Below are positions 8,035 through 34,267 of a stretch of DNA of 34,267 bases, piece after piece; position 1 is the first letter of the stretch; each line of letters starts with the position of its first letter. The position numbers were made by a program, and so were the translations under genes. This stretch comes from Bacteroidales bacterium (GTDB lineage Bacteria > Bacteroidota > Bacteroidia > Bacteroidales > JAIPAP01), in contig JAIPAP010000045.1 of the NCBI GenBank assembly GCA_021740045.1, forward strand, positions 1 through 34,267. The letters run 5' to 3'. The notes under the pieces were generated by a model. It saw nothing but the letters and a program-made list of their open reading frames with translations. It did not search any database and was not told where the DNA came from.

Positions 8035-8131
8035 TGGTGACTCCGGAGGGACTCGAACCCCCAACCTTCAGAACCGGAATCTGACATTCCCTGCCAGCCG
8101 GCAGGCTGGTATCCAGTTGAACTACGGAGCC
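8035..8131 (-). tRNA. tRNA-Arg(CCG) copy with a 20-nt palindrome in the D-loop
   Basis: The minus strand reads a full tRNA-Arg: acceptor GGCTCCG pairs with CGGAGTC, the anticodon arm is TCAGA-TTCCGGT-TCTGA (anticodon CCG), the T-arm contains GGTTCGAGTCC, and CCA is encoded. Compared with the intact copy at 8208-8284 the only difference in the body is 20 extra bases, CCAGCCTGCCGGCTGGCAGG, placed between GGATA of the D-loop and GAAT of the D-stem. This makes it 97 bases instead of 77. The insert can fold on itself and would extend the D-arm as a hairpin. Whether the RNA is processed and charged is unknown; it could be a pseudogene. Confidence 0.7.
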
Positions 8132-8207: not shown

Positions 8208-8284
8208 TGGTGACTCCGGAGGGACTCGAACCCCCAACCTTCAGAACCGGAATCTGACATTCTATCCAGTTGAACTACGGAGCC
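8208..8284 (-). tRNA. tRNA-Arg(CCG), intact copy
   Basis: Cloverleaf of 77 bases with encoded CCA. The acceptor stem is GGCTCCG/CGGAGTC, D-arm GTTC-AACTGGATA-GAAT, anticodon arm TCAGA-TTCCGGT-TCTGA giving anticodon CCG (reads CGG), and T-arm with GGTTCGAGTCC. It is the middle of three tandem copies and the only one with a normal D-loop, so probably the functional gene. It shares its downstream terminator sequence with copy 1, indicating a tandem duplication with a period of 173 bases. Confidence 0.93.
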
Positions 8285-8323
8285 TATTATATGCTATAAT
8301 TTGTACTTTAAATCATGCCCCGT

Positions 8324-8383
8324 AACCGGAATCTGACATTCCCTGCCTGCCTGCAGGCAGGTATCCAGTTGAACTACGGAGCC
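8324..8383 (-). pseudogene. 5' half of a third tRNA-Arg(CCG), also with a D-loop palindrome
   Basis: The minus strand begins with a perfect tRNA-Arg 5' part (GGCTCCGTAGTTCAACTGGATA), then has CCTGCCTGCAGGCAGGCAGG at exactly the position of the copy 1 insertion, then GAATGTCAGATTCCGGTT, after which homology stops inside the anticodon loop. The T-arm and 3' acceptor strand are absent, so it cannot form a tRNA. Its insert contains the perfect 16-base palindrome CCTGCCTGCAGGCAGG and differs in sequence from the insert of copy 1. Confidence 0.8.
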
Positions 8384-30730: not shown

Positions 30731-33700
30731 TCACCCCACACTCTCCTCCACAATTTTGATTTCCTCCTCAGTAAGGCCGTAGAGGTCGTAAACCATGCGG
30801 TCGATTTCGCGGTCGATTTGGGTTATTTGGGATTGGAGGTCCCGGGCTTTTTGTTTTTGCTCGTTGAAGTAGTGCATCCATTCGGATTCTTCGCTTAGGC
30901 TGAGTTTGACCTTTTGCTTTTTGAGTTCTTTGATAAATTCATTGGGTTCAAGGGAAGGCCAGTTTTCAAGTTTTCTGCTCACTTGATTTACGGAATATCG
31001 GCTTTTAAGTAATTGGATGAATTTCTCTGTTATCTTACTCAATTCTAAATTCTTGTTTGTAATTGTCTGAACCTTAGCAATAAATTTAGCTTGCTCAACT
31101 ACGGGTATGCCTTTAATAGGAAACTCTTTGGAATCTTTAATTAATATCTTTTGAAACCTATCTTTATATTCTTCCAAAAACTGTTTTCGATGATAAAAAG
31201 TTATTAGTGAACTATTAATTATGGCAACCAGAAATTCCGGTTCGAATCCTTTCTTCGCTATTAAATTGAAAGCATTTTGCGTATTATAAAGCTCTTTGTC
31301 TGTTAAGGCAGCCCATATTCTTTTATCGGTCCAATCGATTATTTGTTTTATAAGTATCCTTTTTTCAGTGAAAAATCTCTTTTCTCTTGGGGCGCCTAAC
31401 CAATCCCCATAACTAATGCATTCCTTTCCACCCCAGCGAACGATGTATCTTTTAATATCATTCCCTGCTAATAGCTTCCTATACGTATCATTCTCCTGCC
31501 TTGTGGAATGAAAAACCCGTTTATCGATCTGTTCTTTTGTATGACCTTTATATTTGTCATAAGGTGTTAATCCCAAAGAAAAATCAGCACAGTCAATAAG
31601 CTTCTTTGAATCTTTTTGACATTTCTTTAGAATATCTAATGTTTTTTCATCAGTATTAATCCTGAAAATATAACTATCATCATTACTCCATTTATTAGGA
31701 CTAATGGTAAAATAATCATCAGCAGTGATTTTTGAGATTTCATCAATTCTATCAAAACCTTTATAAACAATTATTTCGGCTTCAGAATCATATTTTAAAC
31801 CGGTTCTGAACGTCAGGATTATAGTATCAACTTTGACCTCACCTGCACTCCCGCCAAACGATTCATTAGGAAGTCTTACAATGTTTTCTATACTTGTATT
31901 ATTCAGTAATAATCTTCTCAAGTCCTTATACGAGACCTGTGTTAAAAGTGAAGATGGTATTATAAAGGAAAAGAACTTATTATTCTTTATTAGCCTTAAA
32001 GAGTTTTCAATAAAAGATGAGTATAAATTAACCCGGTTATTGGCACTTTCAAATTTTTCAAATATGTAATCAACAACTGTAGGCTCTAAGCTTTTAATGT
32101 CTACATACGGCGGATTCCCAATCACCACATCAAACCCACCTTTGTATTCCAAGCGGAAAGCATGACTGTAGGAGCAGGTCATTCTATCAACGAGGCGTTG
32201 CAGTCCCATAGCAAGAGGTTGATGTCTGCTGATAACAAGGGGTTGATGTCTGCTAACAAGGGGTTGAAACCCCTTGTTATGATGGTAGCTTTCACCCCCC
32301 TGGTTATGATAGTATGATTCATCCCCCTTGTTATGATCGTAGTTCTCACCCCCCTGGTTATGATAGTATGATTCATCCCCCTTGTTATGATCGTAGTTTT
32401 CACCCCCCTGGTTATGATAGTATGATTCATCCCCCTTGTTATGATGGTAGCTTTCACCCCCCTTGCCATGACAGTAGGATTCATCTCCCTTTTCATCCCC
32501 CTTGCCATTACTGTTTCGATCGTTAGTATCCTGCTCTGCGGACGAGGGGCTATTTTCAGAAGTGTGGCTACTCTCAGACCAAGTGCTGTTCTCAGACAAG
32601 GGGCTGTTCTCAGGCAAGGGGCTGTTCTCAGGCAAGGGGCTACAGCCCCTTGTTGGGTCGCTGGATTTTTCTTCATACAAGGGGCTACAGTCCCTTGGTG
32701 GGTCGCCAGCTTCTCCTTCAGACAAGGGGCTACAGCCCCTTGTTGGGAGATAGCTTTGTTCTGCTTCATTGATATTTGGTAGATCGTGTCGCTCGCGGTT
32801 GGTTTTGATGTATTTTATTACATTCTCCAACTGTTTATCTGATTCAATTTGTTTCCAGTTGAATTTCTGCGCCCACAGATTGTAGGTTTCCTTTTTTGAA
32901 ATGCCAAGGTGCTCTTTGAATTTTTGTGCCGATTTACCTTTTAGCTTTCGCACAATTTCAGGAAGTTCCTCTTTTTCACATACCAAAAGAATATGAACAT
33001 GGTCATTACAGATATTGTATGCCAAACAATTGAAATTGTTTTCTACGATAATATCCGCAATGAATTCTGTCACTTTGAGGGCATCATTATCTTCCAGAAT
33101 AACGGAACGATCAACATGCATTTCACCGGAAGCTCTTCTTTCCCGTACTCTATACTTTTTCATTCTTTCCGATGTGCGGGTGTCATGCGTAACCCAGGTT
33201 ACATGCCATGCTTTTTTATTCTTCTTTTTGAAGACTTCCGGGAATTCCTCTTCCCACCGGAAGGCTTTGTCACCGGCGACAGCGGGTTCGTCGATAAGGG
33301 AGTTGCCGCACTTGATGTTTTGGCTGAGGGTGTTGAGTCTGCGGCCCTTTTGGGCGGTGCGCAGCCACAGCGATAGCTTGGCGATTTCGACGGACTCCTC
33401 GTTGAGGTCGACCCCGTAGATGTTGTTCTCGAGGATATCGTTGGTGATATCGCTCAGCACGAGGCTCTCGCCCAGCAGTTCGGCGCGCAGCTCGTCGATT
33501 TTGCCGTGTTCTTTAATGAGGAAGTCGAGCGCCTGGTTAAGAAATGCGCCCGACCCGCAGGCCGGGTCGAGGATGGTGAGCGACAGTAGCCACTCGCGGT
33601 AGTCGTCGAGCTTTTGGTTGAGGGCTTTGAGGGTGGCCTTTTTGCGGTTGCGGCGCCCCCGGGTGTACTCTTCGTCGACAATGCCCAGTTTGCGGCGCTT

Positions 33701-34267
33701 TTCTTCACACAGCCTTCCCACGGTGTTTTCGACGATGTACTTGGTGATGTATTTCGGAGTATAGAAAATGCCCTCCTTCTTGCGCTGCGTCTTTTGCCGG
33801 TCGACGGGCTCGCCCTGGATTTCGGCCTGTACCTGTTCGATTTCGCCTATGGAGTGCTCGAAGATATGACCCAGGATGTTGACGTCGACGTCCGTCTCAA
33901 AGTCATAGCCGCTGAGGCGCAGGGTGTGTTTGCGCAGCACCTCGTCATCGATGGTGATGCTGTCGAGGATATCATCGGGCTTAAACAGTCCGCCGTTGTA
34001 GGGGAATATCTCGTACCGTTGGCCTTTGTAGCCCTCGTTGAGGTATCCGAAATATTTTTTAAACCGGTGGTACAGCGGGAAGTACTCGTCGTAGCTGTCT
34101 TTGAGGTCGGCCCACTGCTGCACGATGCGACTGATGGGGTTGGGCGGCAGCAGCAACTTGTCTTCGGCAAAAAAGATGAACAGGAAGCGGTCTAGCAGCT
34201 TCTGCGTTTTGCGGAAGAGCAGCAGCTTGTCGTGGCCGGGGTTGTTGGCCGTGAGGTTGTGGTACAG
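30731..34267 (-). CDS. Type IIG restriction-modification enzyme (Eco57I-like) with an in-frame RAYT transposase insert; 5' end outside window
   Basis: 1178 residues are visible; the frame is open to the window edge, so the start is missing. The Eco57I-type N6-adenine methyltransferase has motif I DPACGSG at 234-240 and motif IV NPPY at 718-721. Specificity and C-terminal helical regions follow, ending in QITQIDREIDRMVYDLYGLTE. The N-terminal nuclease lies mostly outside. Between motifs I and IV, residues about 347-708 are foreign: an IS200-like Y1 domain from AWHVTWVTHDTR, with HVH at 423-425 (NDHVHILLV) and the expected catalytic Tyr486 (VIKYIKTN), then repeats rich in Ser, Pro, Gly, Tyr and His up to SHAFRLEYKGGFDVV. 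No stop codon interrupts it. Whether the methyltransferase still works with this insert is unknown. Confidence 0.83.
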   Translation of the reverse strand: MYHNLTANNPGHDKLLLFRKTQKLLDRFLFIFFAEDKLLLPPNPISRIVQQWADLKDSYDEYFPLYHRFKKYFGYLNEGYKGQRYEIFPYNGGLFKPDDILDSITIDDEVLRKHTLRLSGYDFETDVDVNILGHIFEHSIGEIEQVQAEIQGEPVDRQKTQRKKEGIFYTPKYITKYIVENTVGRLCEEKRRKLGIVDEEYTRGRRNRKKATLKALNQKLDDYREWLLSLTILDPACGSGAFLNQALDFLIKEHGKIDELRAELLGESLVLSDITNDILENNIYGVDLNEESVEIAKLSLWLRTAQKGRRLNTLSQNIKCGNSLIDEPAVAGDKAFRWEEEFPEVFKKKNKKAWHVTWVTHDTRTSERMKKYRVRERRASGEMHVDRSVILEDNDALKVTEFIADIIVENNFNCLAYNICNDHVHILLVCEKEELPEIVRKLKGKSAQKFKEHLGISKKETYNLWAQKFNWKQIESDKQLENVIKYIKTNRERHDLPNINEAEQSYLPTRGCSPLSEGEAGDPPRDCSPLYEEKSSDPTRGCSPLPENSPLPENSPLSENSTWSESSHTSENSPSSAEQDTNDRNSNGKGDEKGDESYCHGKGGESYHHNKGDESYYHNQGGENYDHNKGDESYYHNQGGENYDHNKGDESYYHNQGGESYHHNKGFQPLVSRHQPLVISRHQPLAMGLQRLVDRMTCSYSHAFRLEYKGGFDVVIGNPPYVDIKSLEPTVVDYIFEKFESANNRVNLYSSFIENSLRLIKNNKFFSFIIPSSLLTQVSYKDLRRLLLNNTSIENIVRLPNESFGGSAGEVKVDTIILTFRTGLKYDSEAEIIVYKGFDRIDEISKITADDYFTISPNKWSNDDSYIFRINTDEKTLDILKKCQKDSKKLIDCADFSLGLTPYDKYKGHTKEQIDKRVFHSTRQENDTYRKLLAGNDIKRYIVRWGGKECISYGDWLGAPREKRFFTEKRILIKQIIDWTDKRIWAALTDKELYNTQNAFNLIAKKGFEPEFLVAIINSSLITFYHRKQFLEEYKDRFQKILIKDSKEFPIKGIPVVEQAKFIAKVQTITNKNLELSKITEKFIQLLKSRYSVNQVSRKLENWPSLEPNEFIKELKKQKVKLSLSEESEWMHYFNEQKQKARDLQSQITQIDREIDRMVYDLYGLTEEEIKIVEESVG
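32254..32279. repeat. Perfect REP-like palindrome, 12-base arms
   Basis: TAACAAGGGGTT and its exact complement AACCCCTTGTTA, separated by GA. It codes for part of NKGFQPLV in the host frame. A half copy (AACAAGGGGTTGATGTCTGCT) precedes it at 32234. Confidence 0.85.
32273..32488 (-). repeat. Eight tandem 27-bp units coding for a 9-residue repeat
   Basis: Eight consecutive units of 27 bases, each read as G(D/G)E(S/N)Y(Y/D/H/C)H(N/G)(K/Q). Two unit types, GDESYYHNQ and GGENYDHNK, alternate, giving a higher-order period of 54 bases in the middle. Unit length is a multiple of three, so gain or loss of units keeps the reading frame. Confidence 0.9.
32597..32650 (-). repeat. 18-bp tandem repeat (ENSPLP)
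   Basis: CAAGGGGCTGTTCTCAGG recurs with an 18-base period at 32597 and 32615 and merges into the palindrome at 32633. It encodes ENSPL(P/S) repeats; decayed units continue to about 32540 (ENSTWS, ESSHTS, ENSPSS). Confidence 0.75.
32633..32742. repeat. Three REP-like palindromes with a 45-bp period
   Basis: CAAGGGGCTACAGCCCCTTG at 32633-32652 and 32723-32742, and a copy with one altered base at 32678-32697. Arms CAAGGGGCT / AGCCCCTTG flank two bases. Spacing is exactly 45 bases, so each unit codes for 15 residues (TRGCSPL... or PRDCSPL...). Confidence 0.88.

Follow-up and report, generated by a model that had tools for sequence, protein, structure and literature searches.

The odd tRNA-Arg(CCG) gene described here is a redundant and probably non-functional copy interrupted by a hairpin. 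It is apparently the relic of a widespread and apparently undescribed tiny genetic parasite that splits bacterial tRNA genes, supplies a replacement for the lost half and leaves a hairpin in the discarded copy. In complete relatives of this arrangement, a short SLX1-like GIY-YIG nuclease gene lies between a broken tRNA remnant and an intact tRNA of the same type. The nuclease gene is absent from the locus studied here, which we therefore read as an ORF-less relic of a tRNA-splitting, homing-like element rather than as a complete member.

Three tRNA-Arg(CCG) copies in one contig

The window (the whole stretch of DNA analysed, 34,267 nt) is an entire contig of a 161-contig, 3.9-Mb draft genome of Bacteroidota type (G000). 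Three tRNA-Arg(CCG) copies lie on its minus strand, in the transcription order C, B and A. Copy A (8131..8035) is identical to the intact copy B (8284..8208) over all 77 nt, including the encoded CCA, except for a 20-nt palindrome, CCAGCCTGCCGGCTGGCAGG in tRNA sense (8109..8090), inserted after gene nt 22, between canonical A21 and G22 (that is, between the D-loop and the 3' D-stem). In full symmetry two of the ten pairs of this insert mismatch, but it folds as a perfect 6-bp hairpin with a 4-nt loop. Terminator-like hairpins follow copy A (8024-7997) and copy B (8197-8170). The observation made in the preliminary description is thus confirmed, coordinates and sequence included, although copy C (8383..8324) had been missed. 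This 5' remnant consists of tRNA nt 1-22, a different 20-nt palindrome (CCTGCCTGCAGGCAGGCAGG in tRNA sense, 8361..8342) at the identical D-arm site, and nt 23-40. A 39-nt spacer (8323..8285) separates copies C and B, at the place where complete relatives carry a GIY-YIG ORF; that an ORF was lost here is an inference. No GIY-YIG ORF appeared among the listed ORFs near the locus, and no GIY match was found in the contig.

The interpretation offered in the preliminary description is only partly supported. It was correct in seeing a palindromic insertion in a tRNA D-arm with the acceptor, anticodon and T-arms, CCA and terminator kept, but the view that the palindrome sits in the gene without destroying it is not supported. 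The Rfam tRNA model still scores copy A at 52.2 bits (gathering score 29) against 61.5 for copy B, while ARAGORN finds no normal anticodon ("tRNA-???") and the predicted minimum-energy fold is not a cloverleaf. The insert separates A21 from G22 in the tRNA core, and copy B, the only intact tRNA-Arg(CCG) found in the assembly, makes A and C redundant. Moreover, truncated remnants at other loci, which cannot be tRNAs, carry the same insert. In spite of the conserved tRNA nucleotides, CCA and terminator, a functional, transcribed tRNA with an extended D-arm, in which the hairpin is tolerated or regulatory, appears very unlikely. The statement that such insertions are rarely described agrees with what we found in the literature, but the arrangement is common in genomes and is part of a larger structure with a GIY-YIG nuclease gene.

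An assembly artefact is also very unlikely. A second related MAG (G347), sharing another locus of the genome (L002, see below) identically, did not contain the window locus, so that an error here is not excluded by an independent assembly. However, the same site is hit twice in this contig, once more in the same genome (L002, with L070 identical over 2154 bp), and in over 100 other loci, including those of cultured strains such as Thermoflavifilum thermophilum DSM 14807 and Flavobacterium, Algibacter and Sphingobacterium strains, which is far beyond chance.

Elsewhere in the window, a 1141-aa Eco57I-type restriction-modification protein (30731-34156, minus strand) contains, by Pfam, an in-frame IS200-like Y1 transposase domain at aa 350-452, followed by degenerate short repeats, before the methylase motif resumes. 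Two other contigs of the genome, C95 (215-329) and C161 (9462-9579), carry short tandem arrays containing CCTGCCTGCC with periods of 21 and 27 bp.

Recurrence of the junction and its association with GIY-YIG genes

The locus that changed the question was L002, in the same genome, whose nearest named relative is from a Bacteroidales MAG. It contains a tRNA-Arg(CCT) 5' remnant with CCTGCCTGCCGGCAGGCAGG at the same D-arm site, an 82-codon GIY-YIG gene, an intact tRNA-Arg(CCT), and a 3' remnant with a palindrome in its T-loop. A genome of another family of the order (G066, locus L042) has the same order for tRNA-Arg(ACG). L139, from another Bacteroidales MAG, has the same tRNA-Arg(CCG) layout as the window (remnant, intact copy, full-length hairpin copy) but with a GIY-YIG gene in each gap.

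In order to assess how widespread this junction is, we scanned a species-level genome collection for a tRNA D-arm followed by this palindrome. At least 116 stretches were recovered, against a rough chance expectation of about 15. Together with our own loci this made 132 hits, with 61 loci from Bacteroidota and 12 from Omnitrophota, along with many Patescibacteria lineages, WOR-3, Chlorobiota and others. Of the 132 hits, 102 have an intact tRNA of the same type within 1.5 kb on the same strand and 15 lie near contig ends; of the other 15, three are not palindromic. In nearly all checkable loci the hairpin-bearing copy is redundant to an intact neighbor. A GIY-YIG ORF lies within 2.5 kb downstream of 58 hits. 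The typical layout is tRNA nt 1-21, palindrome, nt 22 to about 35, ORF, and an intact tRNA starting about 300 nt after the remnant; ORF-less loci have 60-140 nt instead. The ORF stop often overlaps the first 10-38 nt of the intact tRNA, for example on its T8-A9-G10. Exact placement at A21^G22 in this large set was partly imposed by the query. L087 (3200-4100) contains tRNA-Arg(TCT) copies with palindromes in both the D-loop and the anticodon loop, while L331 (around 1501; G187:C17) has a tRNA-Gly-like copy with TCCGCCGTAAGGCGGA replacing the 3' D-stem and part of the anticodon arm, and no GIY-YIG gene was found near it.

The reverse link was examined in an unbiased search from the nuclease side, with an HMM of 12 of these proteins, which gave strong matches in 44 of 119 Bacteroidia genomes. 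Of the 50 loci examined (including a few duplicates), 41 have a tRNA next to the gene. Two mirror layouts exist, 5' remnant-GIY-intact tRNA and intact tRNA-GIY-3' remnant, and 27 of the 31 loci of the second kind have a recognizable 3' tRNA remnant downstream. Most remnants are interrupted by an insertion, nearly always at a loop: the D-loop (21^22 or 17^18), the anticodon loop or the T-loop. The inserts differ between lineages and are palindromic beyond shuffles (Fisher p = 4e-17), although taken one by one only 11 of 20 are significant at p < 0.05 and nine are not. A cruder comparison, of the best hairpin in the whole remnant-side flank with windows elsewhere in the same loci, gave 18 of 40 against 42 of 542, but is partly confounded by terminators. 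Tandem arrays were also seen. L260 (G205:C9:905300-911300) has ten copies, with a period of 457 bp, of a GIY-YIG gene plus tRNA-Met 3' remnants downstream of an intact tRNA-Met, and L261 (G192:C2:233600-236000) has three GIY-YIG copies, with a period of 345 bp, each followed by a tRNA-Leu(TAA) 3' remnant with a palindrome.

The proteins of these relatives match the Pfam GIY-YIG domain (PF01541, E 4.7e-14) with invariant Y, Y-G, R, H and E columns (the conserved catalytic residues), and their nearest solved relatives are UPF0213 proteins and SLX1 structure-specific nucleases.

Empty sites, tRNA specificity and the nature of the palindrome

A way to learn what was inserted is to compare occupied sites with empty ones in congeners. 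In genome G193, the leader upstream of the tRNA-Glu remnant matches the leader of the single tRNA-Glu in its congener G313, so that the remnant is the original 5' part in place and the new 5' part came with the ORF. This remnant also has a hairpin, in its anticodon loop. In the genus of G187, at least seven genomes have one plain tRNA-Met flanked by the same upstream and downstream sequence that flanks the intact copy and the remnant in G187. The inserted unit is thus the ORF plus tRNA material. On a tree of 84 GIY proteins, the tRNA type needs 36 changes against 58.9 in shuffles (0 of 200). tRNA-Met forms one group, and Arg(TCT) elements from several families group together, while phyla are mixed, although many forks are unresolved because there are few columns. 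GIY lineages follow their tRNA across phyla. A search for vehicles gave only three weak phage matches and no plasmid match.

The palindrome itself is not confined to tRNAs. Exact CCTGCCTGCCGGCAGGCAGG occurs in 33 of 247 Bacteroidia genomes, in up to 43 copies, and 71 of 74 copies examined lie outside the D-arm site (two of the 71 sit 4 nt earlier in a tRNA D-loop). TCCGCC-type palindromes are also dispersed in G187, G142 and G154, and L068 shows a tandem double insertion. In T. thermophilum (G132, L193-L197) the 20-mer is inserted repeatedly inside another intergenic repeat (CACCAGCGAGG, palindrome, AATC) within a 33-kb stretch. In some genomes, therefore, it is a dispersed repeat, and an independent mobile palindrome could have done the inserting, with tRNA remnants as merely tolerant targets and the GIY-YIG element creating only the redundancy. 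We consider this unlikely as the whole explanation, since tRNA loops are hit far beyond chance, remnants in different lineages carry unrelated palindromes, and the one in G193 is unique in its genome; in G000 the exact consensus occurs once. Inserts sit in loops of the remnants, whereas junctions of dispersed copies fall in predicted hairpin loops in 25 of 65 cases (38%) against 40% in shifted controls; they show no preference for hairpin loops, and hairpin-loop targeting by the dispersed palindrome was rejected. The 20-mer has a common C13 to T variant, to which we gave no weight as pairing-preserving variation because the query had fixed positions 1-10. The recurring feature in remnants is the hairpin, not one sequence.

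A proposed tRNA-splitting element and its known counterparts

With moderate confidence, we interpret copies C, B and A as the relic of a tRNA-splitting GIY-YIG element. The layout, its recurrence, the empty sites, the target-linked lineages and, in most loci, the hairpins in leftovers come directly from the sequence comparisons. That the nuclease most likely cuts tRNA genes and spreads by being copied into them (homing) is inferred from sequence alone, as are the probable lack of function of copy A and, from L139, the loss of the nuclease gene from the window. The inference that the hairpin most likely stops the leftover copy from being cut again, or from acting as a tRNA-like decoy, is the weakest step. 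The restored intact tRNA should still contain any cut site, which leaves self-protection unexplained in this view. Full-length redundant copies with hairpins (copy A, L139, L087) suggest that hairpins can also reach complete copies, perhaps by conversion at the cut site.

A version of this reading that differs in what the hairpin is for regards it as a product of repair at the nuclease's own cut, with breaks at loop-encoded positions in redundant copies healed by capture or gene conversion of a palindrome. The loop positions of the inserts in both halves and in full-length redundant copies, and the relatedness to structure-specific SLX1 nucleases, would fit, but repeated exact 20-mers across phyla are not expected from random capture, and this remains a doubtful alternative. 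More speculative, and less likely than not, is a cross-phylum class of minimal selfish elements made only of an ~80-aa SLX1-like GIY-YIG nuclease and tRNA pieces, in which the hairpin in a loop of the discarded copy would be a required working part (a self/non-self mark, or a substrate of the structure-specific nuclease) and not a by-product.

We found no description of GIY-YIG genes with tRNA remnants and hairpins in the literature searched, which left out most subscription journals. Free-standing GIY-YIG homing endonuclease genes that insert in a host gene and carry a replacement for the displaced part likewise involve a small nuclease gene in a conserved gene, host function restored by a duplicated segment, presence in some congeners and absence in others, and target-specific lineages. 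Here, however, the protein is SLX1/UPF0213-like, of about 80 aa and without a recognizable DNA-binding domain, its putative targets are tRNA genes, it works from either side of the tRNA, and a palindrome marks the discarded half. Integrative elements with attachment sites in tRNA genes (tyrosine recombinases) also restore the tRNA on one side and leave a partial tRNA on the other, but the insert found here, of about 0.3 kb, has room only for the GIY-YIG ORF and no recombinase, either the 5' or the 3' half is left, and the leftover has a hairpin. In form, the palindromes resemble Nostoc small dispersed repeats, Rickettsia palindromic elements and REP/REPIN sequences (REPIN, PMC3116915). Those are short, dispersed palindromes able to sit inside structured RNA genes. 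The ones described here are linked to tRNA remnants beside GIY-YIG genes, with several unrelated sequences in the same role. Group I introns in bacterial tRNA anticodon loops are also insertions in tRNA genes, some with nuclease genes, but no intron RNA family or other known RNA was detected (only tRNA exceeded the gathering score in loci L001, L002, L139 and L243), and the tRNA is restored by duplication, not by splicing.

tRNA genes are essential and highly conserved. A tiny element that splits them, repairs them and marks the leftover would be one of the smallest selfish genetic elements, spread over Bacteroidota, Patescibacteria, Omnitrophota and others. It poses for SLX1-like nucleases the question of whether they cut tRNA genes or tRNA-borne hairpins, and it would explain many odd or truncated tRNA calls in genome annotation and why short "GIY-YIG nuclease family" genes sit beside tRNAs.
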